Shown here: in pieces, positions 8,842 to 48,890 of the stretch
Layout of the letters: each line of letters starts with the position of its first letter
Numbering within the stretch: position 1 is the stretch's first letter
Source: Okeania sp. SIO1I7
GTDB taxonomy: Bacteria; Cyanobacteriota; Cyanobacteriia; Cyanobacteriales; Microcoleaceae
Length of the DNA: 63,559 nt
NCBI GenBank assembly: GCA_010672585.1
Contig: JAAHGF010000015.1
Coordinates: forward strand, 220,929 to 284,487
Direction of reading: 5' to 3'
Made by a program: the position numbers and the translations under genes
Notes under the pieces: generated by a model
Told to the model about the DNA's origin: nothing
The model's database searches: none
What the model saw: only the letters and a program-made list of their open reading frames with translations

Positions 8842-9015
8842 ATGATTATTAAAGACCTCAAGCAAATTATATTTGCTACCACAAGAACCAGCTTAATTGG
8901 TCTTGCTGGTATTACTGAAACTCAACCTGCGACTTTTTCCAGTCTTCTAGGCCAGATAAAATCTGATTTTTTATTAGCTTTTAAATACTCATATTGTAAA
9001 AAAAAAATTTTGTAA
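8842..9015 (+). CDS. possible 57-aa small protein of unknown function
   Basis: ATG at 8842 to TAA at 9013-9015 encodes MIIKDLKQIIFATTRTSLIG... with a basic C-terminus (CKKKIL). It lies 16 bp upstream of the response-regulator gene on the same strand, so it could be a leader or the first gene of a two-gene operon. No family is recognised, and no strong ribosome site is seen. It may be a chance frame. Confidence 0.25.
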   Translation: MIIKDLKQIIFATTRTSLIGLAGITETQPATFSSLLGQIKSDFLLAFKYSYCKKKIL

Positions 9016-9031
9016 AAACTAATTTTTTTCG

Positions 9032-10915
9032 ATGAATAAAGATATAATTAAAGTCCTTTTAATAGAAGATAATCAAGACAATTTTCTTCTGGTATATGAC
9101 TTACTGTCACAGGTAGAATCACCAAAAATATTACTAGACTGGGAAAAGACTTACGAAACAGGATTAACAGTAATGAAAAAAAATCAACATGATATTTGTT
9201 TGCTTGACTATAACTTCGGAGAAACAAAAGGATTAGAAATAATGAAAACCGCAATTAATCTAGGTTGCCAAACCCCAATCGTATTACTCACAGATACAGA
9301 AAATCAAGAATTAGAGATGGATTTAATGAATAAAGGAGTAGCAGATTACTTGAATAAATCAGAAATTAACGAATATACATTAAATCGAATAATTCGCTAT
9401 ACACTTGAGAAGAACCAAAGTTTAAACGCTTTAAAAGAAAGCAAAGCAAAGCTACAAGAAGCACAAAAAATTGCTCATTTAGGGAACTGGGAATATGACT
9501 TAAAGACGCAAAAAATAACTTGGTCAGATGAAGTATTTCGCATTTTTGGTCTCAACCCTAACAGACCAGAACCAACTTATTCAGAATGGCTTGAAATATT
9601 TACTCTCGAAAGCCAACAATTATGGGAGAAAAATGCGATTTTAATCTTAGAAAAGGCAGAAAGTTGTGAATGTGAATATCAAATCATTCGACCAGATGGT
9701 ACATTAAGGTATATTTATACTCAGGCTACTTTAGTCGTAGATAATAACTCAGAACCTATAGGCATATTCGGCACAGTGCTAGATATTACAGAGCGCAAAA
9801 AAGCAGAGTTAGCTGTGCAGGAACTTAGACAAAAAGAGCATTTATTAGGACTCATTCTAGACCGAATTCATCGATCTTTAAATTTGGATGAAATATTAGA
9901 GACTACAGTAGAGTCAGTACGGTTTTTTTTGGAGTGCGACCGCGTCTTAATTTATCGTTTTTTGGAAGAAGGAAAAGGCATCGTAGAAAAAGAATCTGTA
10001 GCAGCAGGTAGCAGTCCAATTTTAGGTAAAATTATTGACGATCCATGTTTCCCAAATACAGATATTATAGAACGGTATAAACAAGGTTATATTAGTATAA
10101 TAGAAGATATTGAAAACCCAGATGTAAACAAATGCCATGCCGATCTACTCAAACAGTTTCAAGTCAAAGCAAGTATGGTATTGCCAATTTTAATTAATCA
10201 AGAAGGGGAAAAACAAGGTTCAGAAACTACTGCATGGGGATTAATAGTAGCTCATCAATGTACTCATAAACGACAATGGCGAATCTCAGACACCGATCTA
10301 TTGAGGCGCTTGGCAACTCAAATAGCGATCGCTATTCAACAAGCTCAACTTTATCATCGTTTAGAAAAACTAAATCAAGAATTAAAGGAAATAGCTTATA
10401 TTGATGGTTTGACAGGAATTTGTAACCGTCGCCACTTTGAAGAAAAACTAGACCAAGAATGGAAAAGATCAACACGGGAGAATACTTCTATGTCAATAAT
10501 TATGGTGGATATAGATTATTTTAAACCCTACAACGATACTTACGGCCATCAGCAGGGAGACAAATGTTTGCAACAGGTAGCTCAAACGATTAGTGCTGCA
10601 GTGAAACGACCAGGAGATTTTGTCGCTCGATATGGGGGAGAAGAGTTTGTGGTTGTACTGCCAAATACTTCCATAGAAGGAGCGCTGAAAGTTGCAGAAA
10701 ATATTAGAACACAAATTGAAGCTTTAAGAATTCCCCATACAGCTTCGGCAGTGAGTAAGTTTGTAACAAGTAGTTTAGGAGTGGCAAATAGTTACTGCTC
10801 TACTGACTCTAATCCTAAAATATTGCTAGAAGCAGCAGATATAGCTCTATACAATGCTAAAAATGCTGGTAGAAATCAAGTTTATATTGATGATTCATGT
10901 ATAAACAATTCGTAG
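9032..10915 (+). CDS. REC-PAS-GAF-GGDEF diguanylate cyclase response regulator
   Basis: 627 aa. An N-terminal receiver (about 6-125) has LLIEDNQD acidic residues, phospho-acceptor D in CLLDYNFG, T in LLTDT and K in LNKSE. A PAS domain with a PAC-like end (about 150-258) ends at VLDITERKKAE. A phytochrome-like GAF domain (about 275-445) has FLECDRVLIYRF and a long insert. The GGDEF domain (about 455-622) has an intact catalytic GGEEF (535-539) and an inhibitory I-site RPGD (526-529). The protein should make cyclic-di-GMP from GTP under phosphorelay and sensory control. GAF chromophore binding is uncertain because no clear bilin cysteine was identified. No histidine kinase is adjacent. This is a common cyanobacterial architecture. 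Confidence 0.92.
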   Translation: MNKDIIKVLLIEDNQDNFLLVYDLLSQVESPKILLDWEKTYETGLTVMKKNQHDICLLDYNFGETKGLEIMKTAINLGCQTPIVLLTDTENQELEMDLMNKGVADYLNKSEINEYTLNRIIRYTLEKNQSLNALKESKAKLQEAQKIAHLGNWEYDLKTQKITWSDEVFRIFGLNPNRPEPTYSEWLEIFTLESQQLWEKNAILILEKAESCECEYQIIRPDGTLRYIYTQATLVVDNNSEPIGIFGTVLDITERKKAELAVQELRQKEHLLGLILDRIHRSLNLDEILETTVESVRFFLECDRVLIYRFLEEGKGIVEKESVAAGSSPILGKIIDDPCFPNTDIIERYKQGYISIIEDIENPDVNKCHADLLKQFQVKASMVLPILINQEGEKQGSETTAWGLIVAHQCTHKRQWRISDTDLLRRLATQIAIAIQQAQLYHRLEKLNQELKEIAYIDGLTGICNRRHFEEKLDQEWKRSTRENTSMSIIMVDIDYFKPYNDTYGHQQGDKCLQQVAQTISAAVKRPGDFVARYGGEEFVVVLPNTSIEGALKVAENIRTQIEALRIPHTASAVSKFVTSSLGVANSYCSTDSNPKILLEAADIALYNAKNAGRNQVYIDDSCINNS

Positions 10916-11634
10916 GAGCAAAAGCAAGAAATTCATTTAGTCATACAGGTAGTCCTGTAGATATAGTGATAAAATTACGGTGAAGCGATATAGCTAGCGA
11001 TTAGCTGCCGCACTTGCTCTGCCAACGCTTGATTATAATCAAGAATAAAATATGTGCTACGCACCCAAATGATTTTCTAAAAAATTAGAAAAAAATAAAG
11101 TTTTCCTGACTAAGTTAGAAATTCTAGCCACGTAAAGTATTATTTAATCTTTCTATTGGGACTTACACAACTTAATAAGCAAAATTAGACTATAATACTT
11201 GTCAACCAATAATGATTTGACGTCGAAGCTCTGTGAAGGTCAAAGAAACAACTCCTGTCGCTATACCTCCTTTACAGGACTACCAAAAAATTTAGTTTGG
11301 CAATAATTTTTGATTTTTCAGTATTGATCAGTATTTATTCATAGCAGTAAGGTTGATAGACAATATGTGCAACTCCTCAACATCTCAACTAATATCATGT
11401 TCGGTTGAATACTTATAAATAACTGTTGTGAGAAGTCAGTCCTCAGTCCTCAGTCCTCAGGAGGGAAGAAAGGAGGAATACATAGAAAATATTGGAGAAA
11501 AGCATTGATAATTTCAGTATTTCTTTGGTACTGTCGCTACCCGGAGTCCTTAAATTTTATTATAACTGACCCGTCCGAACATGATATAAGATAATTGCTA
11601 TGATGCTAATCCTAGTAATCAGAAAAATTGACTT
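10916..11634. other. gene-free stretch with repeat debris
   Basis: No supported gene. At about 11283-11335 there is a degraded copy of the control-region repeat (TTTAGTTTGGCAATA, then TTTTTCAGTATTGA) otherwise found at 13527-13870 and 16188-16465. A composite repeat begins at 11392. Confidence 0.5.
11392..11480 (-). repeat. CCGGACATGATAT-type composite repeat, reverse copy
   Basis: ATATCATGTTCGGTTGAATA followed by CTTATAAATAA, then direct repeats of AGTCCTC and GGAGGGAAGAAAGGAGG. Read on the minus strand this is the order seen at 20846-20985 and 61690-61810. Confidence 0.55.
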
Positions 11635-12518
11635 ATGCCTGGTCAGATTATTAATTCTCCAAAATAATTAAATCTTTTTAATATTGAAAAATCTATTAAT
11701 TTACAAATATATGAGCATCGTTTCACTTTCAAGTTATTGATGGTCTCCAGGGTGATTTTGATATTCAAAAGGTAAAATTATCGCCAGATATTTTGTTTAA
11801 TGGTAGTATTCCAGTATCTAGAAATAGATTTCATAAAAATGATGAATTGAATGATTTTTTTGTTTTTTGTGATACGAGAAATGGTCATACAACTATTCAT
11901 TCTTGGGAGCTTATCAAGACAACTAAAAGAGAAAGGTTGATTTGTGAAACTATTCTCAAAAATAGACGGAAAAAAAGTACGTTCATTAATGGATAATTGA
12001 TAATTACCTCTCCCTAAAAGGGAGAGGATTGACAAATAAGGAAAAAAAATAAATTTTTTCCCTTAAAAGGGGAGGCCTTTAACCCGAATTATTTAATTAT
12101 TTAATTATTTAATTATTAATTATTCGGCAAAAAAAATGGTAATCCTTTATATTTTAAAAATTTATCTGAGTTAATAGATAATTTGCAAATTCAAGAGTTA
12201 CATAATTTGGTGGAGAAGAAAATTATTCGTTATATTGCGGAACAGGGTTATGAATTTGTCAATTATAAAAATTCATCGGGAATTAATGGCATATATAGAA
12301 TATTTTTACCTCATTCTGAGATTGTGCTGACCTTAACTGCTACAGGTACAAAAGATTTTATAGCTACGGTATCGATTAATGAGGAAACTCCAGAGGAGTA
12401 TAAGTCTTTATTTATCAAGGAAATTTATCGGCAGAAAAAGTATAGGTATATAACTGCAAAAGACTGTGGGAAGTTACAAGGTTTTCCTAGTTGGTTTAGA
12501 GCCCATAGTAGAGAGAAT
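11635..12518 (+). pseudogene. cytosine-C5 DNA methyltransferase remnant (first tandem copy)
   Basis: It aligns with the intact gene at 13899-15287 but is destroyed in three ways. An early TAA comes 11 codons after ATG 11635. About 550 bp is deleted at about 11733, joining the start region to ...CAAGTTATTGATGG, so motifs I, IV (PCQ), VI and VIII are absent. A MITE of about 145 bp lies at 11982-12126. The last segment (about 12180-12518) still encodes the region around HSEIVLTLTATGTKD and KDCGKLQGFPSWFRAHSREN before homology stops. It is the left copy of a roughly 2.3-kb tandem duplication. Confidence 0.85.
11982..12126 (+). mobile_element. MITE, GATAATT/TTATTCGG family, copy A (short form)
   Basis: It interrupts the methyltransferase remnant between GTACG and GGCAAAAAA; the intact copy reads GTACGGTAAAAAA here. 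The ends are TTCATTAAT and AATTATTCGG. The inside has GATAATT heptamers, CCTCTCCCTAAAAGGGAGAGG, CCCTTAAAAGGGGAGG and a TTAATTA tract. Related copies are at 32580, 44408, 44815 and 45828. Confidence 0.8.
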
Positions 12519-12817
12519 CAAGAAAATTATCTCCACTTTTTAAAGAACCATCTGAGACAGAATCTCTAGATAAGGTTGAAGGAAAAGTTATCAAACTTGA
12601 ATGGGGAGAAGAAGATCAAAAAGGACGAGTAACTATCATTACATCCATCAAGGAAAAGACACAAGAATCAGAAATAGTAATTGAGTTAAATCGTGCAGAC
12701 TATAAAAAAGCTTTTGAAGCTAATCTGAACCAAAGTCTAATTATTTGTAGTGGAAATTTGATTGAAGAAAAAAATCAATTAATTATCCGTAATGTTTGTA
12801 GTTTTACTATTGAGTGA
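12519..12817 (+). pseudogene. C-terminal fragment of an unidentified protein
   Basis: The methyltransferase homology stops abruptly at about 12518. In a shifted frame (12524-12817) about 97 clean codons follow: KLSPLFKEPSETESL, VEGKVIKLEWGEEDQKGRV, IELNRADYKKAFEANLNQSL, ending RNVCSFTIE and TGA. The composition looks like a real protein tail, alternating beta strands of an OB- or Sm-like kind, but I do not recognise the family. No start codon is available. It marks foreign DNA joined to the duplication. Confidence 0.45.
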
Positions 12818-13017
12818 AAAATTGTCAATCTAAATTTATAGAAGCGATCGCTCACCTACTCTCAAAAAATAATTTTGAGGAAGTTTGGCACTGCCACAAA
12901 TATCGGAATTATTTTCATAACAATCTGCAATGTCAGCCTAAAAATCAAAGAAGCCAACACCGAACACTATATATATACGGAGACAAATCTAGTTAAGCTA
13001 AAAAACCAGAGTCAAAG

Positions 13018-13524
13018 CTAACCAAAGCCTTGAGGTTTGTCTTCCTCCAGTTCTACGTCTTGGAAAAACTTACGAATAATTTCAACTTCAGGCTCTGTCT
13101 CAATCCACAGACGAGCGCCACCTGCTTGACTTCTGTTAGGTTTATGAGGTCGATAGACGATTTTGCAATTTCCCAGAATTTCTACTTCGTGGCAGCGATG
13201 GTTTTTGCCTCCTTGTTTGACAGATATTGCTGGTAAAGATGTACCGTGGTCTCGGTTATAGTCAATTTCTTTGCGCAGCACATGGATAAAAGTATTGCCT
13301 GTACGGAATCCTTTATTCCAAGTACCTTGAGGACCTCGACGACCAGGGGTAATTTCTGGCATTCCCCGACTATTTAAGGGAATTATCCAGAACCGTTTAA
13401 CTTTTCTGGCTCCTTTGAGACGACCTTGCCTCAAAAGTAACCTGAGTCTAGCAGTAGAAATATTTAGAAGAAATGCTGCTTCTGTTGTACCAACTTTATC
13501 TGGTTCAGTATTTGTATCTGTCAT
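13018..13524 (-). CDS. HTH (excisionase/MerR-like) DNA-binding protein, copy A
   Basis: 168 aa, starting at MTDTNTEPDKVGTTEAAFL (ATG 13524). A longer frame to 13749 reads through the repeat region and is rejected because the paralogue at 15679-16185 starts at the same methionine. Residues about 10-50 are an excisionase-type winged helix (TTEAAFLLNISTARLRLLLR, then GRLKGARKVKRFWIIP). The remainder is basic and then acidic at the C-terminus (ELEEDKPQGFG). It is convergent with the methyltransferase remnant and divergent from the intact methyltransferase at 13899, with two 174-bp repeats between. That placement suggests a controller of the methyltransferase promoter (inference). Confidence 0.7.
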   Translation of the reverse strand: MTDTNTEPDKVGTTEAAFLLNISTARLRLLLRQGRLKGARKVKRFWIIPLNSRGMPEITPGRRGPQGTWNKGFRTGNTFIHVLRKEIDYNRDHGTSLPAISVKQGGKNHRCHEVEILGNCKIVYRPHKPNRSQAGGARLWIETEPEVEIIRKFFQDVELEEDKPQGFG

Positions 13525-13526
13525 AA

Positions 13527-13870
13527 ACTGTTTCGGAATATATAAAGTATAAACTAAATAACTTAAACTGGATAACCATTTACCATCAAACCACAAAGGA
13601 TTGAATTTGGCAATATTTGATTTTTCAGTATTGACTTTAATAGTAATCTTAGTAGGAAATTTCACAATTACCCAAAATCTCAATTTAAGATCATAGCTAT
13701 ACTGTTTCGGAATATATAAAGGATGAACTAAATAATTATTTACCATCAAACTACAAAGGATTTAGTTTGGCAATACTTGATTTTTCAGTATTGACTTAAT
13801 AATCGTAATCTTAGTGGAAAATTTTACAATTATTCAAAATCTCAACTGAAGATAATTGCTATGATGCTAA
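13527..13870. repeat. two tandem ~174-bp control-region repeats between HTH gene A and the methyltransferase
   Basis: Unit 1 starts at 13527 and unit 2 at 13701, both with ACTGTTTCGGAATATATAAA. Shared internal blocks are TTTACCATCAAAC, ACAAAGGATT, TTTGGCAATA, GATTTTTCAGTATTGACTT and CAAAATCTCAA. The same blocks recur at 16188-16465 and in part at about 11283. Confidence 0.8.
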
Positions 13871-13898
13871 TCCTAGTAATAATCAGAAAAATTGACTT
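13855..13898 (+). promoter_or_regulatory. candidate promoter of the intact methyltransferase
   Basis: TTGCTATGAT at 13856-13865 gives a TATGAT -10 hexamer about 33 bp before ATG 13899. The same sequence precedes the remnant copy (about 11595-11604). No good -35 is visible, which would fit an activator-dependent promoter overlapping the repeats. Confidence 0.35.
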
Positions 13899-15287
13899 AT
13901 GTCTGGTCAAATAATTAATTCTTCAACTCAATTAAGCTTTTTTAATCTTGAGAAACCTATTAATTTACAAATATATGAACATCGCTTCACTTTTATAGAT
14001 TTATTTGCTGGGATTGGCGGATTTAGAATTCCTCTAGAAGAATTAGGAGGTAAATGTTTAGGATATTCAGAAATTAACTCTGATGCGATGAAGGTTTATC
14101 AGCAAAACTTTCTGAATGGATATATCAATAATGATGAAAAATATCTGGGAGATATTACTAAAGTTTCTAAGCTGCCTTGGCAAGTCAATCTGATAGTTGG
14201 TGGAGTTCCTTGTCAACCTTGGTCTGTAGCTGGAAAATTAAGAGGTTTTGACGATCATAGAGGAAAACTTTGGTTTGATACTATAAGAGTTGTGGAGGAA
14301 AATCAACCTGAAGCTTTTATCTTTGAAAATGTTAGAGGGTTAATTAGTCCGGTTAATCAAAAGTCATTTGAATTAATTATTCAGCAGTTTGAAAAGATTG
14401 GTTATCGTGTCTATTACAAATTACTTAATTCTGCTGATTTTGGATTGCCTCAAAATAGAGAACGAGTTTTTATTGTCGGGATTAGGAAAGATTTAGATAT
14501 AGATAATTTCCATTTTCCCGAACCATTGAATATTCAAACTAAACTTTTTCAAGTTATTGATGGTCTCCAGGCTAATTTTGATATTCAAAAGGCAAAATTA
14601 TCACCAGATGTTTTGTTTAATGGTAGTATTCCAGTCTCTAGAAATAAATTTCAGAAAAATGATGAGTTGAATGATTTTTTTGTTTTTTGTGATACGAGAA
14701 ATGGTCATACAACTATTCATTCTTGGGATATTATCCAGACAACTAAAAGGGAAAAGTTGATTTGTGAAACTATTCTCAAAAATAGACGCAAAAAAAAGTA
14801 CGGTAAAAAAGATGGTAATCCTTTATCTTTAGCAGATTTGTCTGAATTAATAGATAATTTGCAAATTCAAGAGTTGAATAATTTGGTGGAGAAGAAAATT
14901 ATTCGTTATGTTGAAAAACAGGGTTATGAATTTGTCAACTCTAAAAATTCATCGGGAATTAATGGCATATATAGAATGTTTTTACCTCATTCTGAGATTG
15001 TGCCGACCTTAACTGCTACAGGTACAAAAGATTGTATAGCTACGGTTTCTATTAATGCGGAAACTCCAGAGGAGTATAAGTCTTTATTTATCAAGGAAAT
15101 TTGTCGGCAGAAAAAGTATAGGTATATAACTGCAAAAGACTGTGGGAAGTTACAAGGTTTTCCTAGTTGGTTTAGAGCGCATAGTAGGGAGAATATTGCT
15201 AAGAAACAATTCGGAAATGCTGTGTCTATTCCAGTTGTTTATTATTTGGCTAAGTCTTTACTTAGGTCGGTAGGTTTTTTTGATTAG
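13899..15287 (+). CDS. DNA (cytosine-5)-methyltransferase, Dcm family
   Basis: 462 aa with all ordered C5-methyltransferase motifs. Motif I is FIDLFAGIGGFRIPL (SAM binding), IV is GGVPCQPWSVAG (catalytic Cys), VI is FENVRGL and VIII is QNRERVFIVG. A target-recognition region follows (about 210-370), then IX/X ending KKQFGNAVSIPVVYYLAKSL. It transfers methyl to C5 of cytosine in an unknown duplex site. It is the intact right-hand copy of a tandem duplication, divergent from HTH gene A and convergent with HTH gene B. No adjacent classical endonuclease is recognised; the 347-aa gene at 16467 is the best candidate partner. Confidence 0.92.
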   Translation: MSGQIINSSTQLSFFNLEKPINLQIYEHRFTFIDLFAGIGGFRIPLEELGGKCLGYSEINSDAMKVYQQNFLNGYINNDEKYLGDITKVSKLPWQVNLIVGGVPCQPWSVAGKLRGFDDHRGKLWFDTIRVVEENQPEAFIFENVRGLISPVNQKSFELIIQQFEKIGYRVYYKLLNSADFGLPQNRERVFIVGIRKDLDIDNFHFPEPLNIQTKLFQVIDGLQANFDIQKAKLSPDVLFNGSIPVSRNKFQKNDELNDFFVFCDTRNGHTTIHSWDIIQTTKREKLICETILKNRRKKKYGKKDGNPLSLADLSELIDNLQIQELNNLVEKKIIRYVEKQGYEFVNSKNSSGINGIYRMFLPHSEIVPTLTATGTKDCIATVSINAETPEEYKSLFIKEICRQKKYRYITAKDCGKLQGFPSWFRAHSRENIAKKQFGNAVSIPVVYYLAKSLLRSVGFFD

Positions 15288-15678
15288 ATTCAACCTCGGA
15301 TTAGAGTTTTTTTAATACTTACAACTTCAAATTTTGCCAGTATCTAGAAGAAGCAATTCTGGCAAAGGAAAATCGGAATTACAGAAAACTCCAGAATAGT
15401 TTTTGACGCCGAAAATTTTCAGGTAAAGGTAGCCATCCCATCTATATACTTATGATTTATAAGGTTGGGGGAGAAAAATTGCTAGAAAAATATGATAGAT
15501 AGAGGCGATCGCTCGCCTAACTAAAAAAATAATTTTGAGGAGGGTTAGCACTGCCACAAATATCGGAATTATTTCCATAACAATCTGCAATGTCAGCCTA
15601 AAAATCAAAGAAGCCAACACCGAATACTATAGATTATGAGGAGAAAAATCCAGTTAAGCTAAAAAATCAGATTTAGAG
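15288..15678. other. gene-free stretch, 3' flank of duplicated unit
   Basis: From about 15504 (GCGATCGCTCGCCTAA) to 15680 this matches 12843-13020, including GGCACTGCC/GCACTGCC and CAATCTGCAATGTCAGCC. It is therefore the second copy of the spacer between the converging genes, without a conserved frame. It may serve as a bidirectional terminator region. Confidence 0.5.
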
Positions 15679-16185
15679 CTAACCAAAATCTTGAGGTTTG
15701 TCTTCCTCCAGTTCTACATCTGCGAAATATTTGCGAATAATTTCAACATCAGGCTCTACCTCAATCCACAAGCGGGCACCACCTGCTTGACTTCTGTTAG
15801 GTTTATGAGGTCGATAGACGATTTTGCAATTTCCCAGAATTTCTACTTCGTGGCAGCGATGGTTTTTGCCTCCTTGTTTCACAGATATGGCGGGTTTTGA
15901 TGTGCCGTTGTCTCGGTTATAGTCAATTTCTCTTCGTAGCACATGGATAAAAGTATTGCCTGTACGAAATCCTTTATTCCAAGTTCCTTGAGGGCCTCGA
16001 CTACCAGGGGTAATTTCTGGCATTCCCCGACTATTTAAGGGAATTATCCAGAACCGTTTAACTTTTCTGGCTCCTTTGAGACGACCTTGCCTCAAAAGTA
16101 ACCTGAGTCTAGCAGTAGAAATATTTAGAAGAAATGCTGCTTCTGTTGTACCAACTTTATCTGGTTCAGTATTTGTATCTGTCAT
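15679..16185 (-). CDS. HTH (excisionase/MerR-like) DNA-binding protein, copy B
   Basis: 168 aa, nearly identical to copy A (13018-13524). It shares the same start MTDTNTEPDKV and the same HTH block (TTEAAFLLNISTARLRLLLR), with a few C-terminal substitutions (EVEPDVEIIRKYFADVE). It is convergent with the intact methyltransferase and divergent from the 347-aa gene at 16467, across another pair of control repeats. The coding sequence is better conserved between the copies than the spacer DNA, which implies both are functional. Role as a transcriptional controller is inferred from the HTH and the divergent layout. An excisionase-type architectural role is the alternative. Confidence 0.7.
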   Translation of the reverse strand: MTDTNTEPDKVGTTEAAFLLNISTARLRLLLRQGRLKGARKVKRFWIIPLNSRGMPEITPGSRGPQGTWNKGFRTGNTFIHVLRREIDYNRDNGTSKPAISVKQGGKNHRCHEVEILGNCKIVYRPHKPNRSQAGGARLWIEVEPDVEIIRKYFADVELEEDKPQDFG

Positions 16186-16187
16186 AA

Positions 16188-16465
16188 ACTGTTTCGGAAC
16201 ATATTAAGGATAAACTGGATAACCACTTACCATCAAACCACAAAGGATTGAATTTGGAAATATTTGATTTTCTAGTATTGACTTTAATAGTAATCTTAGT
16301 AGGAGATTTTATAATTACCCAAAATCTCAACTTAAGATAATTGCTATACAGTTTCGGAGCATATCAAAGATAAACTCGGATAACTATTTACCATTAAACC
16401 ATAGAGGATTTCACTTGGTAAATAATTTTTGATTTTCCAGTATTGATTTATATAGGAAGAGATTA
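16188..16465. repeat. control-region repeats between HTH gene B and the 347-aa gene
   Basis: One full unit starts at 16188 (ACTGTTTCGG) and a second, more diverged unit at 16348 (ACAGTTTCGG). They carry the same ordered blocks as 13527-13870, including CAGTATTGACTTTAATAG. The second unit runs into the ribosome site AGGAAGAG (16454-16461) of the next gene. Confidence 0.75.
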
Positions 16466-16466
16466 G

Positions 16467-17510
16467 ATGTCAAGGGAAAAGTTAATTGTAGACCCAGGTT
16501 TTGTGCATCACCGAAAGATACTAACAATTTTACAAGAACAAGGTTCGAGAATTATTAATCAAGAAATTAGGTCAATACCACCAACCACCCCTGAATGGCA
16601 TAAAAGAGTGTTAATTGACCAGATATACACAAGAATATTGATCGAATTCTGTAGGGTAAATGAAATTAAGACTCTTGAAGAGATTCTTCTGGAAAAACGT
16701 GGTAGGCTTTTCTGCTCAATCGTTAAGCTTAAACCTTGTCAGAAAATATATGAAAAGGGTGAAAATGACCGTATTGTTTTAGAGCCTGAAGCATTTGAAG
16801 GAAGTGAATTAACTTTAGAATTACATATAACTTTAGGTCATGTAACAGCAAGTACATTAAAAGCAGAACTCGAATGCGGTGGTAATTTTGCCGTAATAGC
16901 TGAATATTTTGCCTCAAAAGATAATAAATTGATCTTTCATCCTCTAGTAATAGGCTTTCCTTACATACAGGATATTGAAACAGGTGAACCGTCTTGGACT
17001 TTATACAGCGACTTTTACAATCTCTATATTGAAGACTTTGATGAATTCTCGAAAGTAAAAGAACAAGATATGCCTGAGGACTTTAAGGAAATGAAGCAGA
17101 TTAAAGAAAGTCTTTTTAAGGCTGCCTTGGGGAAAATTCTCTCGGAGTCTACCCCTAAAGACTGGGGTGGCGAAACTTCAGACTTTACAACTTCCCATCT
17201 ACACTACCAAGGGAAACGTCTTAGAGCAGCATTTTTACTAAAAGGACCCGCTAAGTTCACTCCAATGACTATTAAACACTTGGGTAAGAATGGAGACCAA
17301 ATTATTAGGCTGGCTAAAGAACCAGTTGACATATTGATTGTTCAACACTGTCACGACATTACATCCTCAGTTATCGAAATGTTGAAAATTTTTGCAACAC
17401 AGCCTTCCAATCCAAGGTATTATTGCCTTCTGGATGGCAGAGAATCTCTAAGATTGTTAGAGGCTTACGACCTGAAAAAGTGGGCACTTAATGAATCTAA
17501 AAAAGGATAA
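16467..17510 (+). CDS. unknown 347-aa protein; possible restriction-type effector linked to the Dcm/HTH module
   Basis: Family not recognised with confidence. The ATG at 16467 has AGGAAGAG 6 bp upstream. The C-terminal third is the most motif-like: KDWGGETSDF (231-240), RLRAAFLLKG (251-260), then LGKNGDQIIRL and VDILIVQHCHDI (288-298). An acidic cluster (E236, D239) about 20 residues before AAFLLKG could be a diverged PD-(D/E)xK core, and the final strand-helix-strand looks alpha/beta. No signal peptide or membrane segment is seen. It is divergent from HTH gene B and shares control repeats with the methyltransferase, so co-regulation is likely. Nuclease function is inference only. Confidence 0.6.
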   Translation: MSREKLIVDPGFVHHRKILTILQEQGSRIINQEIRSIPPTTPEWHKRVLIDQIYTRILIEFCRVNEIKTLEEILLEKRGRLFCSIVKLKPCQKIYEKGENDRIVLEPEAFEGSELTLELHITLGHVTASTLKAELECGGNFAVIAEYFASKDNKLIFHPLVIGFPYIQDIETGEPSWTLYSDFYNLYIEDFDEFSKVKEQDMPEDFKEMKQIKESLFKAALGKILSESTPKDWGGETSDFTTSHLHYQGKRLRAAFLLKGPAKFTPMTIKHLGKNGDQIIRLAKEPVDILIVQHCHDITSSVIEMLKIFATQPSNPRYYCLLDGRESLRLLEAYDLKKWALNESKKG

Positions 17511-17621
17511 TAATCCTATTATTTTATTTAAAGATGATGAAACTCAAAACTAGATTTTAGTTATAGTTTCTGTTTTCCCTTTTTTTCTTCTTACTTTACT
17601 ATTGCCTACTTTCCAAAACAA

Positions 17622-18077
17622 ATGCCCCTAATACTGCCCCCCAATCACTTCCAAAAAATTTCCACCCATGCAGAAACAGCTTACCCAAATGAATGTTGCG
17701 GTCTAATATTAGGTAGGCAAAACCAACAGACAAAAACAGTCATGGAAGTCTGGCCTGCTGAAAATGCCTGGCAAACAGAAGCAGATGAATATTGGCCGGA
17801 ACAAAAAGATTTTACAGAAGAACGAAGATATGCAATCCCCCCAGAACTAATGCTGAAAGCAATGAAATATGGAAGAGAACGCTACCTCTCCATCATTGGT
17901 ATCTATCATTCTCACCCAGACCATTCAGCCATCCCTTCAGAATTTGACCGTACCTACGCCTGGCCAGAATATTCCTATATCATTCTATCCGTCCAAAAAG
18001 GCAAAACTATTGACTTTCTCTGTTGGTCTCTTGACCACAACCATCAATTTCAATCAGAAGAAATAATTAAAAGATAG
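17622..18077 (+). CDS. JAMM/M67-family metallopeptidase (Mov34/MPN/PAD-1)
   Basis: 151 aa. The zinc-binding JAMM signature is complete: an upstream glutamate (NECCGLILG) and HSHPDHSAIPSEFD, giving H-x-H-x7-S-x2-D. Known bacterial relatives remove sulfur-carrier or ubiquitin-like adducts, as Mec+ does for CysO-cysteine. It lies 105 bp upstream of a MoeB/ThiF-type activating enzyme with a rhodanese domain on the same strand, so the pair probably acts in sulfur transfer through a ubiquitin-like sulfur carrier. No carrier gene (ThiS/MoaD-like) is visible in this window. Confidence 0.88.
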   Translation: MPLILPPNHFQKISTHAETAYPNECCGLILGRQNQQTKTVMEVWPAENAWQTEADEYWPEQKDFTEERRYAIPPELMLKAMKYGRERYLSIIGIYHSHPDHSAIPSEFDRTYAWPEYSYIILSVQKGKTIDFLCWSLDHNHQFQSEEIIKR

Positions 18078-18182
18078 GCAACTTGATGTATTGCAGGTTT
18101 AATTTAGATAATTTTGGCAAAATATTAACCATACTTGTCAAACAATACTATCTACTAGAAAAATATCTAGGCCGAAATTGTC

Positions 18183-19355
18183 ATGTTAAATCCGAATCTG
18201 GAACAAGTCCAGTTAAATACAGAAGAGTATCAACGTTATTCGCGCCATTTAATTTTACCGGAAGTAGGATTAGATGGTCAGAAACGTCTTAAGGCAGCCA
18301 GTGTTCTATGTATTGGTACTGGCGGTCTTGGTTCCCCACTATTGTTATATCTAGCAGCAGCAGGAATTGGAAATATTGGAATTGTAGATTTTGATATTGT
18401 GGATCATTCCAACCTGCAACGACAGGTTATTCATGGAACATCTTGGGTAGGTAAGCCAAAAATTGAGTCTGCCAAAAATCGGATTCACGAAATTAACCCC
18501 CACTGTCAAGTTGACCTTTACGAGACCAGGCTAAGTTCAGAAAATGCCCTCGACATTCTTAAATCCTATGATGTAGTTGTCGATGGTACTGATAATTTCC
18601 CGACTCGTTACTTGGTTAATGATGCTTGTGTTCTTCTGAATAAACCTAATGTCTATGGTTCAATTTTCCGTTTTGAAGGTCAGGCAACTGTCTTTAATTA
18701 TGAAGGTGGACCTAACTACCGCGACCTCTACCCCGAACCCCCGCCTCCAGGAATGGTACCTTCCTGTGCAGAGGGTGGTGTTTTAGGAATTTTGCCGGGA
18801 ATGATTGGAGTTATCCAAGCGACAGAAACTATCAAAATTGTTTTGGGTCAAGGTACAACTCTCAGTGGTAGATTGTTACTTTATAATTCCTTGGATATGA
18901 CTTTCCGGGAATTGAAACTGCGTCCTAATCCAGTACGACCAGTGATTGAAAAGTTGATTGATTATGAGCAGTTTTGTGGCATTCCTCAAGCTAAAGCACA
19001 GGAGACAGAAAATAAGATGGCTATTCCAGAAATGACGGTTCAAGATTTGAAGCAATTATTGGATAGTGGGGCAGATGATTTTGTCTTAGTTGACGTGCGG
19101 AACCCGCACGAATATGAAATTGCTCAGATTCCTGGGTCTGTGTTAGTGCCGTTGCCAGACATTGAGCAGGGTGATGGTGTGACAAAGGTTAAGGAATTAA
19201 TGAATGGTCATCGCTTAATTGCTCATTGTAAAATGGGTGGGCGATCGGCTAAAGCGTTAGGTATTCTGAAGGAGGCTGGTATTGAGGGTACTAATCTCAA
19301 AGGTGGAATTACTGCCTGGAGTCAGGAAATAGATTCTTCTGTGCCTCAATATTGA
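18183..19355 (+). CDS. moeB: MoeB/ThiF-type adenylyltransferase with C-terminal rhodanese domain
   Basis: 390 aa. The N-terminal adenylating domain (about 1-250) has the nucleotide-binding loop GTGGLGSPLLLYLAAAG, IVDFDIVDHSNLQRQ, and the DGTDNFPTRYLVND block. The rhodanese domain (about 285-385) has active-site loop CKMGGRSAKA with Cys, and DVRNPHEYEIA. It should adenylate the C-terminal glycine of a MoaD/ThiS-like carrier and pass sulfur from the rhodanese persulfide. The zinc CxxC pairs usual in MoeB are not evident, as in many cyanobacterial MoeB-rhodanese proteins. It follows the JAMM protease gene. Confidence 0.9.
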   Translation: MLNPNLEQVQLNTEEYQRYSRHLILPEVGLDGQKRLKAASVLCIGTGGLGSPLLLYLAAAGIGNIGIVDFDIVDHSNLQRQVIHGTSWVGKPKIESAKNRIHEINPHCQVDLYETRLSSENALDILKSYDVVVDGTDNFPTRYLVNDACVLLNKPNVYGSIFRFEGQATVFNYEGGPNYRDLYPEPPPPGMVPSCAEGGVLGILPGMIGVIQATETIKIVLGQGTTLSGRLLLYNSLDMTFRELKLRPNPVRPVIEKLIDYEQFCGIPQAKAQETENKMAIPEMTVQDLKQLLDSGADDFVLVDVRNPHEYEIAQIPGSVLVPLPDIEQGDGVTKVKELMNGHRLIAHCKMGGRSAKALGILKEAGIEGTNLKGGITAWSQEIDSSVPQY

Positions 19356-19523
19356 GGTAGCACTCAGCACTCAGCTATTAGCAATCAGCTTCTAGTTGCC
19401 TGTATAATGGGGGTTTGAATCCCCCATAAAAGGTGCACCACTAATTTTTTCAAATATAGTGGGGGTTAGTAACTGTTGGCTAAAATCTGGTATTATCTAT
19501 AAAAATATGGGATTATCTGTTTT

Positions 19524-20737
19524 ATGCTACTTGGATTTAAAACTGAACTACATCCGAATAATCAGCAGAAAACCTTACTGGCTAAACACGCTGGTGTTGC
19601 AAGGCACGCCTGGAATTGGGGATTATGGCTAACTAGAAACATCCTTAATCACAATTCCAACAATCCTTCAGGTAAACTTAAATTTCCGACTGCGATTGAT
19701 TTGCATAAACTATTGGTAGCAATGGTTAAACCTAATAACTATTGGTACTATGAAGTTTCTAAATGCGCTCCGTATGGATGCTTTGAGGTATTTATTAGAC
19801 GCTTGGAAACGAAGATTCAGCAAAGTGTCTGGTCAACCTAAATTCAAGAAGAAAGGTAGAGATGATAGTTTTACTTTAGATGGCTCAATTACAGTAGATT
19901 TTAATCGTATAAAACTACCTAGAATTGGATGGGTAAAAACTTTTGAGTTCTTACCTGATAATATTAACCCCAAGTCTGTAACTATTAGTAGAAAAGCAAG
20001 CTGTTGGTTTGTGAGCTTTAAGGTAGAAACTATACCTCAAAATACTGAGAAATCAGTGGATGTAGTTGGTGTAGATTTAGGTATAAAATCTCTAGCGACC
20101 TTATCCACTGGTGAAGTTTTTGTTGGCGCTAAGTCTTATAGAAAGTTAGAAGCAAAACTTTCTCGGTTGCAATATCTGAACCGACATCAAACTAAGTTCT
20201 CTAGCAATTGGAAGAAGGCTCAACTCAAGATAGCTAAACTACATAGGAAAATAGCTAATATCAGAAAGGATACATTGCACAAGCTAACTACTTACTTGGC
20301 TAAAAACCACAGCCAGATAGTAATAGAAGACTTAAATGTATCAGGAATGATGGCAAATCACAAGCTAGCTAAGGCTGTTGGCGACATGGGTTTTTATGAA
20401 TTCAGAAGACAGTTAGAGTACAAGTGTGAGTTATATGGTTCTAAGTTAATCATTGTTGATAGATGGTTTCCTAGTTCTAAAACTTGCAGTAGGTGTGGAA
20501 CTGTTAAAGAGTCTCTGTCTTTATCGGAGCGTGTATTCAACTGTGAACACTGCAATTTTAGCTGTGATTGCTCCGCAACGCTAGCGCGAACGAGACTTAA
20601 ATGGAGCGTTAAATTTAGCTATGGCGGTCAGTTAGCTCCGCAACGCTAACGCGTTTCGCGCCAGCGTTGCGAAGCAAACGACCGTGACAGCTTGTGGACT
20701 GGATAACGCCGACGTTGCCAGATTGAAGCAAGAATAG
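19524..20737 (+). pseudogene. tnpB: IS200/IS605-family tnpB, frameshifted and insertion-disrupted
   Basis: The N-terminal part is MLLGFKTELHPNNQQKTLL. A frameshift at about 19773-19779, after WYYEVSKCAP, moves the reading to the next frame (ALRYLLDAWKRRFSK onward). RuvC residues are visible in VGVDLGIKSLATL and IVIEDLNVSGM. The zinc ribbon is CSRCG...CEHC. At 20569-20590 a 22-bp repeat is inserted directly after TGTGAT. Removing it restores CDRDLN, the block with the last catalytic Asp; with it the frame is lost. A second related repeat interrupts about 20632-20680. Remaining tail codons end at TAG 20735-20737. No longer functional. Confidence 0.85.
20569..20590. repeat. 22-bp short repeat inserted in tnpB
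   Basis: It begins TGCTCCGCAACGCTAGCG. Related sequence follows at about 20633-20678 (GCTCCGCAACGCTAACG and GCCAGCGTTGCGAAGC) and inside the MITE at about 32750-32800. It is a small GC-rich palindromic repeat unlike the AT-rich surroundings. Confidence 0.75.
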
Positions 20738-30301: not shown

Positions 30302-31264
30302 ATGGAAGAAAAACAACAAACAAACAACCCGTCACAACCTGTAGTGCCACAGAATACTACGGTACAGGAAACAGTAAATCCACAACCTGTAGTGCCACAG
30401 AATACTACGGTACAGGAGACAGTAAATCCACAACCTGTAGTGCCACAGAATACTACGGTACAGGAGACAGTAAATCCACAACCTGTAGTGCCACAGAATA
30501 CTACGGTACAGGAGACAGTAAATCCACAACCTGTAGTGCCACAGAATACTACGGTACAGGAGACAGTAAATCCACAACCTGTAGTGCCACAGAATACTAC
30601 GGTACAGGAGACAGTAAATCCACAACCTGTAGTGCCACAGAATACTACGGTGCAGGAGACAGTAAATCCACAACCTGTAGTACCACAGAATACTACGGTG
30701 CAGGAGACAGTAAATCCACAACCTGTAGTGCCACAGAATACTACGGTGCAGGAGACAGTAAATCCACAACCTGTAGTGCCACAGAATACTACGGTACAGG
30801 AGACAGTAAATCCACAACCTGTAGTGCCACAGAATACTACGGTACAGGAGACAGTAAATCCACAACCTGTAGTGCCACAGAATACTACGGTACAGGAGAC
30901 AGTAAATCCACAACTACAGGTTGTGTCACCAAGTATGGTGGAGGCAAAGGTAGAACAACCAGTAGAAAAACAAGTAGGAGTTATTAGTCGTAGAAATAAC
31001 CAATCTCAGTCACAACCAGTTCTAGTTTACAACCCTTCCCTGCTTCTAATACCTCGCCATGAACCGGCAGATGTAATTCCTACCCAACGGGACTCATCTA
31101 TAGTGGACTGGTTAGAAACATCAGGCAGAATGTTACCTAGAGATCCTGCAGAATCAGACAATTATCTAGAAGAGGAAGAGGAAATCTCAGAATTGATAGC
31201 TGTAGATGACAATTTTAGTGATGATGATGTTTTAGAAGGAAATGCCGATGACTCTGGTGAATAG
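30302..31264 (+). CDS. repeat protein: twelve 16-residue repeats plus acidic C-terminus
   Basis: 320 aa. Residues 12-203 are exactly twelve copies of QPVVPQNTTVQETVNP, identical at protein level. After an unrelated linker (LQVVSPSMVEAKVEQPVEKQ) comes a basic patch, then a C-terminal region with DVIPTQRDSSIVDWLETSGR and a strongly acidic tail (YLEEEEEISE, DDNFSDDDVLEGNADD). No signal peptide or membrane segment. The family is not recognised. The repeat is proline/threonine-rich and probably disordered, a spacer or binding array. It is 135 bp upstream of mraY on the same strand, possibly co-transcribed; the acidic C-terminus could be the conserved functional part. Confidence 0.7.
   Translation: MEEKQQTNNPSQPVVPQNTTVQETVNPQPVVPQNTTVQETVNPQPVVPQNTTVQETVNPQPVVPQNTTVQETVNPQPVVPQNTTVQETVNPQPVVPQNTTVQETVNPQPVVPQNTTVQETVNPQPVVPQNTTVQETVNPQPVVPQNTTVQETVNPQPVVPQNTTVQETVNPQPVVPQNTTVQETVNPQPVVPQNTTVQETVNPQLQVVSPSMVEAKVEQPVEKQVGVISRRNNQSQSQPVLVYNPSLLLIPRHEPADVIPTQRDSSIVDWLETSGRMLPRDPAESDNYLEEEEEISELIAVDDNFSDDDVLEGNADDSGE
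30335..30910 (+). repeat. 12 x 48-bp coding tandem repeat
   Basis: Twelve 48-bp units start with CAACCTGTAGTGCCACAG. The units differ only at a few silent sites, for example CAGGAAACA in unit 1 and GTGCAGGAG in three consecutive central units. That near-identity points to recent or ongoing expansion. Confidence 0.95.
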
Positions 31265-35848: not shown

Positions 35849-35953
35849 AATTTTATTGCTTAATTTTTAGAATTATTTCTATCATATATTCTAGCTTGCT
35901 ATAGATATCAAAGAATAACAATAGTAGATTCCTGTCCTGTCAATAGGAGAGAA

Positions 35954-36198
35954 GCAAGAAGGAAAGTGTTTCGTTATCTAGGATAAAAGCAAGAAGGAAA
36001 GTGTTTAGTTATCTAGGATAAAAGCAAGAAGGAAAGTGTTTAGTTATCTAGGATAAAAGCAAGAAGGAAAGTGTTTAGTTATCTAGGATAAAAGCAAGAA
36101 GGAAAGTGTTTAGTTATCTAGGATAAAAGCAAGAAGGAAAGTGTTTAGTTATCTAGGATAAAAGCAAGAAGGAAAGTGTTTAGTTATCTAGGAGAGAA
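35954..36198 (+). repeat. 7 x 35-bp tandem array
   Basis: Seven units of exactly 35 bp start with GCAAGAAGGAAAGTGTTTAG (first unit TTTCG). The array lies 108 bp upstream of the DUF262 gene. It has no spacers, so it is not CRISPR. The unit is derived from the interspersed repeat also at 8235-8345. Confidence 0.95.
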
Positions 36199-45196: not shown

Positions 45197-45540
45197 TGAA
45201 ACTTCTCTGAATTGAATTTAAAGGTAGTTGAAATGTTGTCAAATTTATTCAATAAATTAAAGTGAAAATGATTTGCTCTGATGGGGATAATCATGGCGCT
45301 CTACTACTGCCAGGTGCAATAATTCTTATATTTTTTGTTGATACTAACTCTTGCCGTTGTTCGTGTAGTTTTATTGCTTGTATCTAATAATTTTTCTTTT
45401 TATTCATACTTAATTCTCAGTAAACGTTGTGATCGAATTGAGGATGACTGTGGATATGTTCTAATATACTGCTCATAATTTCTAGACCAAAATAAGATTT
45501 TTGATTATTAGACCGCTATTTATTTTTAGGAGAGGTCTAG

Positions 45541-45731
45541 TGGCTTTGTTGCGTATGTCGCAATAGGAGTTTTTGCTTAGTTTGATATTTTGGTAGTCGG
45601 TGGTTTTGTTGCGTATGTCGCAATAGGAGTTTTTGCTTAGTTTGATATTTTGGTAGTCGGTGGTTTTGTTGCGTATGTCGCAATAGGAGTTTTTGCTTAG
45701 TTTGATATTTTGGCAGTCGGTGGTTTTGTTG
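45541..45731 (+). repeat. 3.2 x 60-bp tandem repeat
   Basis: Three 60-bp units start TGGCTTTGTTGCGTATGTCG or TGGTTTTGTTGCGTATGTCG and are almost identical, plus the first 11 bases of a fourth. Each carries TTGCG(N)4TCGCAA, a small palindrome. Confidence 0.95.
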
Positions 45732-47990: not shown

Positions 47991-48890
47991 ATTTAGCGAT
48001 CGCTTTTCCATTTTACTGTTTTGATTATGGGCTGCTTTTTTTGCGTTGAATAAAAAGTCATGCGTAGGGACGAACAACCCCCAACTATACTTAGACTATC
48101 ATCATTTTTTCCCAGGTGCAATGAGAAATCCTGCATTTTTCCTGGTGCTTTTTGCAATGAAAATTGTGGCTTCAAACTTAGGTGTCTGGGAATGACGAAA
48201 TGAGTGGCGAGGGTCGAATTTTGGTGATTATATTTGGCGATCGCTTTTCTATATTACTGTTTTGATTATGGGCTGCTTTTTGCGTTGAACAAAAAGTCAT
48301 GCGTAGGGACGAACAACCCCCAACTATACTTAGACTATCATCATTTTTTCCCAGGTGCAATGAGAAATCCTGCATTTTTTTCTGGGGCTTTGTGTAATGA
48401 AGTTTGTGGCTTCAAACTTGGGTGCTTGGGAATGACCAGATGAGTGGCGAGGGTCGAGTTTTAGTCATCTATTTAGCGATCGCTTTTCCATATTAGTGTG
48501 TTGATGGTGAGCTGCTTTTTTTGCGTTGAACAAAAAGTCATGCGTAGGGGCGAGCGATACCTAACTATACTTATAATATCACCGTTTTTTCTCATGTGCA
48601 ATGAAAAATCCTAAATTTTTGGTGCTTCGTGTAATGACAGTTGTGGGTTCAAACTTTGGTGTCTGGGAATAACGAGATGAGTGGTGAGGGTCGAATTTTA
48701 CTCATCTATATTACGATTAGCGATCGCTTTTCCATTTTACTGTGTTGATTATGAGCTGCTTTTTTTGTGTTGAATAAAAAGTCATGCGTAGGGGCGAACA
48801 AACCCCAATAACACTTATACTATCACCATTTTTTTTCATGTGCAATGAGAAATCCAACCTTTTTTTGGTGCTTAGTGTAATGAAAAATGA
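47991..48890. repeat. 3.7 x ~241-bp degenerate tandem array
   Basis: GCGATCGCTTTTC marks unit starts at 47996, 48237, 48476 and 48720. Each unit has GTTGAATAAAAAGTCATGCG or a variant, then TAGGGACGAACAACCCC, CAATGAGAAATCCTGC and TGAGTGGCGAGGGTCGA. Short minus frames recur in each unit but are not conserved in length. The last unit is truncated. Confidence 0.9.

Follow-up and report, generated by a model that had tools for sequence, protein, structure and literature searches.

A helix-turn-helix (HTH) gene that stands back to back with a DNA methylase gene raises the question of whether the methylase is what it controls. The question is posed by a 63,559-nucleotide stretch of the Okeania sp. 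SIO1I7 genome (GCA_010672585.1, contig JAAHGF010000015.1, positions 220,929 to 284,487), which we refer to as the window; in our numbering it is G000:C17:220929-284487, G000 being the genome that holds it. Two copies of an HTH gene here accompany one broken and one intact cytosine methylase gene, and the original prediction made from this DNA was of a controller-protein arrangement. We conclude that the HTH gene is unlikely to be dedicated to switching the adjoining methylase, because the family to which it belongs is large and its likely site is repeated throughout the genome. The comparisons presented below point to a family of paralogous proteins whose putative operator, a short palindrome, recurs in intergenic arrays.

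Searches with the HTH protein returned 27 matches in G000 and 22-43 in each of five relatives, the nearest named relatives being Okeania hirsuta and Okeania metagenome-assembled genomes. The N-terminal region matches the HTH_17 and excisionase families and its predicted fold is nearest to that of lambda Xis, in a comparison with PDB structures that covers mainly residues 6-62 and not the C-terminal part. Residues 77-152 match phrog_8676 (E 5.8e-11, on positions 7-85 of a profile of 91), relatives of which are encoded in 41 viral loci. By these matches the family appears to be one of two-domain proteins, in which a probable Xis/MerR-like winged HTH is followed by a small domain that is free-standing in phages. 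At the viral loci L163-L203 this domain is a highly conserved stand-alone protein of ~75-100 amino acids (IHVNQH...GPCKIVY...CGAKVWIETE). A sequence search of PDB with the family profile gave no match at E up to 1, and the same search with the single HTH protein gave weak matches only, the best being uS3 at E 0.059. No plasmid relatives were found at E 1e-5; at E up to 10 there were seven weak matches, the best at 0.7. In the window both genes are intact, with 168 codons each, and their products are 95% identical. The ratio of nonsynonymous to synonymous substitution (dN/dS) between them is 0.18, and by this measure both are under purifying selection.

Most genes of the family, including some in distant cyanobacteria, carry just 5' of the start codon an 18-bp palindrome of the type AACTNT-N6-ANAGTT. 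The outer part of the palindrome is common to the family and the inner bases are specific to subfamilies, changing with the region of the recognition helix. In the A-type genes a long conserved upstream stretch ends in GTTCCGRAAYAGTT beside the ATG. At the same position the B type, with an STGR-type helix, has AACTANNACGTNNTAGTT, the S type (SRQR) has AACTATTGTCCAAYAGTT and the C type (CCQR) has AACTATAGTGCTATAGTA, and perfect palindromes precede the ATG in distant genomes (AACTATTGCGCAATAGTT in locus L041 and AACTCTAGCGCTAGAGTT in L088). When scored for agreement with AACTNT-N6-ANAGTT together with symmetry, 58 of 71 non-redundant promoters reached the 95th percentile of mononucleotide-shuffled promoters. 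With up to two mismatches allowed, the A pattern was matched 10 times in the window, where 3.4 matches would be expected, and four of these lie within the control repeats adjoining the HTH genes. Such a conserved site, in repeats ahead of a gene for a protein of DNA-binding type, is typical of autoregulation, and this is what the arrangement suggests.

The palindromes also occur in large numbers. Genome-wide counts, which cover the S, B and A types, gave 118 S sites in G000 (41 forward and 77 reverse), 56 B sites (a self-complementary pattern, counted on one strand) and 31 A sites, and the reversed-pattern controls gave 0. Among the 29 genomes searched, S and B sites are present in eight and A sites in six. 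Each genome with such sites has eight or more HTH matches, and the number is zero or one in the 21 that lack S and B sites. In G010, which has no A sites, the best HTH match is 67% identical. The sites are clustered: as judged by eye, 60 of 100 S/C-type sites are within 300 bp of another and 43 of 50 B sites are in groups, both among the matches listed, and 24 of the 31 A sites fall in three arrays. In viral contigs the S palindrome was found in two stretches and a more degenerate B pattern in 38.

Tandem arrays were compared in stretches picked for their palindrome sites, 18 from G000 and 20 from G001-G004. The repeat units, of 52-157 bp, form 14 groups that are alike only in the palindrome (six B, four S and four A). 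Variation was compared by column in the 27 arrays that have four or more whole units. It is lower in the palindrome than in the remainder of the unit in 26 of them, with means of 0.011 and 0.060 respectively, a difference of about five-fold (Wilcoxon p 8e-7). When the palindrome was ranked against equal-length stretches of the same unit, the mean rank was 0.19 in 21 arrays, with 0.5 expected, and 0.05 in the seven of them from G000. The window has a 60-bp array of its own (Table 1), each of the three units of which contains TTGCG-N5-CGCAA (0.02 expected), and a site of this form also precedes the L031 HTH gene, which is of the SAQR/STQR type.

We favor the explanation, with a probability of roughly 0.6, that these Xis/MerR-like proteins would bind the palindromes, acting as repressors of their own genes and covering their cognate arrays. 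A symmetric HTH dimer would bind the 18-bp palindrome. At the start region of its own gene the dimer would block transcription, resulting in negative autoregulation, and on the arrays several dimers would load side by side to form a nucleoprotein cluster, which would both organize the intergenic DNA and titrate the regulator. The window holds two A-type units, each made up of control repeats, HTH gene and 3' flank, among defence-type genes. A more ambitious version, which we advance tentatively and would sooner bet against than for, is that this is a bacterial protein-satellite system of tens of paralogues: each subfamily would read its own palindrome, serving both as autoregulatory operator and as the conserved box of many independently formed arrays, and the family as a whole would mark and organize the repeat-rich intergenic DNA of these large genomes. 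The logic would be comparable to that of CENP-B and its box in eukaryotic satellites.

Several observations weigh against the favored explanation. With respect to the promoters, 13 of the 71 fail the palindrome score, among which is every one of the four SAQR/STQR-type promoters (L027, L028, L031 and L033), and the outer consensus was derived from the very promoters scored with it. Taken singly, only 2 of 27 promoters reach p < 0.05 against random windows, and one of these two has its palindrome elsewhere. In window copy B the palindrome is imperfect, with five of nine pairs, and no sigma-70-like promoter was found before either window HTH gene. With respect to the genomes, the reversed B control, otherwise 0, gave one match in G002 and two in G016; G011 has A-type HTH genes and no strict A site; and exact C-type sites, among the matches listed, stand solely before HTH genes. 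Since the genomes with and without palindromes are related, eight of 29 does not represent eight independent events. Similarly, the arrays were selected for holding the motif, those from related species are not independent, and three of the 21 ranked arrays score 0.50-0.53 and one 0.96. By eye L265 resembles L254 reversed, which would make 13 groups of units instead of 14.

A further point concerns the S sites and leads to the first alternative, that the palindromes are ordinary repeats (cores of miniature inverted-repeat transposable elements (MITEs), products of satellite slippage or RNA hairpins) unrelated to the HTH protein, the promoter copies being chance insertions. All 13 of the S sites that were read outside the larger arrays (L235-L247, the first such sites in contig order) lie inside one MITE-like element of ~90 bp, which is bounded by AGGACTTACGCA/TGCGTAAGTCCT or near variants of these and is centred on the S palindrome, and part of the S-site spread is for this reason due to transposition. 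The element is short and non-coding, has terminal inverted repeats and is present at many sites, as expected of a MITE, and this applies to the S-type singletons only; one copy lies upstream of the HTH gene L022. A search of open-licence papers on the palindromes, the MITE end, the Okeania HTH family and Trichodesmium intergenic repeats yielded no description of them. What the ordinary-repeat explanation does not account for is the recurrence of the palindrome immediately 5' of the ATG in paralogues and in distant genomes, its presence in otherwise unrelated array units, its reduced variation within nearly all of the arrays and its confinement to HTH-rich genomes. We therefore regard it as unlikely.

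A second alternative is that the HTH protein is a recombinase or helper that spreads the palindromes, in the manner of TnpA-REP, and that the A-type unit is itself a mobile module. A-type units at different sites indeed have in common a stretch from about -267 to +700 (~0.95 kb), the sites differ between species, and palindromes are found both in arrays and in the MITE. In addition, the 5' end of the HTH gene and its palindrome are tandemly duplicated in L023, L026, L009 and the window, which involve different subfamilies. However, no conserved HuH (His-x-His) motif was found by eye in the family alignments A1 and A3, and at 26 of 38 non-A loci both flanks are kept between species, so that most copies look fixed. 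Nor was a clean empty site found at the single place examined in detail. An attempt to prove mobility from an empty site between lepB and pyrC failed, with an IS605-type tnpB there in G000 and other sequence in G003 and G010, and near nadC no alignment of the upstream flank was obtained. The G000 gene (L110; G000:C25:62500-66300) encodes 406 amino acids and is flanked by lepB and a pyrC-like gene, a place that in other Okeania species is taken by an A-type HTH gene. A recombinase or helper role thus appears quite unlikely.

This leaves the possibility raised by the locus itself, that the HTH protein is a restriction-modification (R-M) controller that, by way of the repeats, sets the timing of methylase expression or holds it down. 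A-type sites do lie between the HTH and methylase genes, the neighbours are of defence type (PDC-M02, and a NERD protein encoded in L067), and the divergent HTH/methylase part is common to the window, L082 and L114 (G004)/L074. The layout does recur in two other species, but at most HTH loci no relative of the window methylase was found. The 122 loci brought in by the HTH searches are a redundant set with flanks of ~1.5-5 kb, and the search covered relatives of the window methylase; on this basis a methylase relative is present in seven, which represent four places (L062/L113, L082, L069 and L050/L074/L114). At the 25 other HTH loci of G000 (flanks ~5 kb, shorter at contig ends) no relative of the window methylase was found. 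The original prediction had held that homologues lacking methyltransferase neighbours would speak against it, and as regards relatives of this methylase such homologues form the large majority. A linked pair of restriction endonuclease and methylase genes, as in an R-M system, was not found either, in that no restriction enzyme was recognized among the window genes tested (ORF347, an open reading frame (ORF), matched no family). The C proteins of R-M systems are small Xre-type HTH proteins, unlike the Xis/MerR-type protein with an extra domain described here. C proteins bind an operator near their own gene, and the conserved site before the ATG is a candidate for such an operator. What survives of the predicted arrangement is therefore a protein of DNA-binding type with a conserved site before its gene, and a role as R-M controller we consider highly improbable. 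In the favored explanation the methylase and ORF347 are neighbours on which the A-type sites may act, neither being a dedicated partner.

The layout of the window (Table 1) bears on how this arrangement came about. The predicted repetition of a methyltransferase/HTH region is evident from four aligned blocks with identities of 92.6% (719 nt), 93.4% (394 nt), 93.8% (256 nt) and 87.6% (145 nt), far beyond chance, and the ORFs and the alignment of the copies bear out that both HTH genes are intact and the first methylase broken. It is also correct that each HTH gene and the gene that follows it point away from each other across repeats of ~160 bp. The control repeats consist of a 44-nt core in four copies and of 100-nt and 63-nt blocks in three copies each, ~160 bp apart within a pair; the solo fragment to their left matches the HTH control DNA of G002 and G004 at 88.9-93.3%. 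The methylase remnant is without its 3' end and without ~553 bp of the conserved domain, equivalent to about 13993-14547 of copy 2, and contains an insert of 144 bp (11978-12121). Copy 1 does include the remnant and HTH gene that were predicted, but the two are separated by a C-terminal piece of PDC-M02B. This piece is 85% identical to the last part of L083 500-1690, which matches PADLOC PDC-M02B with E 3.5e-154. G002 has, one after another, a GGDEF gene, the PDC-M02B remnant, an HTH gene (residues 68-168 only), the methylase, a further HTH gene and ORF347, with no methylase remnant, and this does not support the proposal that two regulator genes are maintained for each methylase. A plain tandem duplication of the methylase/HTH pair is rejected, since the methylase remnant is fused to PDC-M02B and is missing in G002. 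The ~190 bp 3' of each HTH gene are part of the HTH unit, because they travel with HTH genes to places where no methylase is seen. The join of one remnant to another, together with the layouts of G002, L114, L082 and L083, therefore indicates that what these loci have in common is a series of defence-type genes with A-type HTH units set between them. The candidate defence genes PDC-M02A (DUF4365) and PDC-M02B are both complete at L083:500-2187 and are convergent with the adjoining A-type HTH gene. ORF347, for which family and profile searches gave no match, has relatives in two of eight genomes searched and a partial one in Hydrocoleum L069; its G002 homologue (L062 2008-3052) is split over two frames. 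There is no Rfam match at the gathering threshold in window positions 8900-20000. Further tandem arrays of the window are at 30333-30914 (48 bp x 12.1), 35944-36193 (35 bp x 7.1) and 47991-48884 (239 bp x 3.7).

Table 1. Features of the window, in window positions.
Feature	Position	Strand	Basis or detail
Solo fragment of A-type control repeat	11284..11328	.	left of broken methylase; repeat D15
Methylase remnant (copy 1)	11588..12518	+	alignment to copy 2
C-terminal remnant of PDC-M02B, candidate defence gene	12514..12817	+	frame and stop from ORF reading
3' flank of HTH unit	12838..13017	-	repeats D2, D8, D19; second copy ~15499-15678
HTH gene, copy B (168 aa)	13018..13524	-	
Paired control repeats, HTH copy B/methylase	13525..13862	.	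repeats D4-D7; A-type sites 13527-13539, 13701-13713
Intact DNA cytosine-5 methylase (462 aa)	13899..15287	+	Pfam PF00145 DNA_methylase E 6.9e-83; NCBIfam dcm
HTH gene, copy A (168 aa)	15679..16185	-	Xis/MerR-like HTH ~residues 9-62, phrog_8676-like domain 77-152
Paired control repeats, HTH copy A/ORF347	16186..16454	.	A-type sites 16188-16200, 16348-16360
ORF347, divergent neighbour of HTH copy A	16467..17510	+	
60-bp tandem array, 3.2 copies	45540..45731	.	full units hold TTGCGTATGTCGCAA

Okeania-type cyanobacteria have large, repeat-rich genomes, and we know of no explanation for the upkeep of their repeats. If the favored explanation is true, these repeats gain a protein partner, in the form of a paralogous DNA-binding set matched to palindromic arrays. 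Moreover, since differences in the recognition-helix region go along with differences in the inner bases of the site, the family would offer a set of natural variants for deciphering how Xis/MerR-like HTH domains recognize their sites.

RacA, BldC and lambda Xis are like the HTH family in predicted N-terminal fold. RacA binds as a symmetric dimer (PMC5859096), a mode that would fit the short palindrome as a site, whereas BldC forms head-to-tail oligomers on direct repeats, in contrast with the palindrome of the HTH family. The family differs from all three in its phrog_8676-like C-terminal domain, in place of other partners, in its 22-43 paralogues per Okeania genome and in having several palindrome types in tandem arrays. 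Controllers of the C.Kpn2I type (PMC6237814) are like the HTH gene in small size, in having sites near or in their own gene and, in some cases, in being divergent from the methylase; they differ in HTH type, and here no restriction enzyme was recognized and methylase neighbours are mostly absent. Cyanobacteria and Beggiatoaceae have short intergenic tandem repeats, for instance TAACTGA, some of them just upstream of start codons (PMC4679880). That repeat is 7 bp long and has no protein family matched to it, whereas the units described here are of 52-157 bp and contain the palindrome of HTH promoters. Among known systems that pair a protein family with extragenic palindromes, the closest is that of repetitive extragenic palindromes (REPs) with TnpA-REP (REP-associated tyrosine transposase, RAYT), in which presence of the protein goes with many short extragenic palindromes, often in tandem (PMC8266576). 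The HTH family resembles TnpA-REP in its high-copy extragenic palindromes and differs in that the HuH motif, which TnpA-REP has together with a catalytic Tyr, is not conserved in the aligned family. The tnpA-REP gene is described as mostly single-copy (PMC8266576), in contrast with the tens of HTH paralogues, and the palindrome of the HTH family differs from REPs in being 18 bp long and in standing also at each gene's own start.

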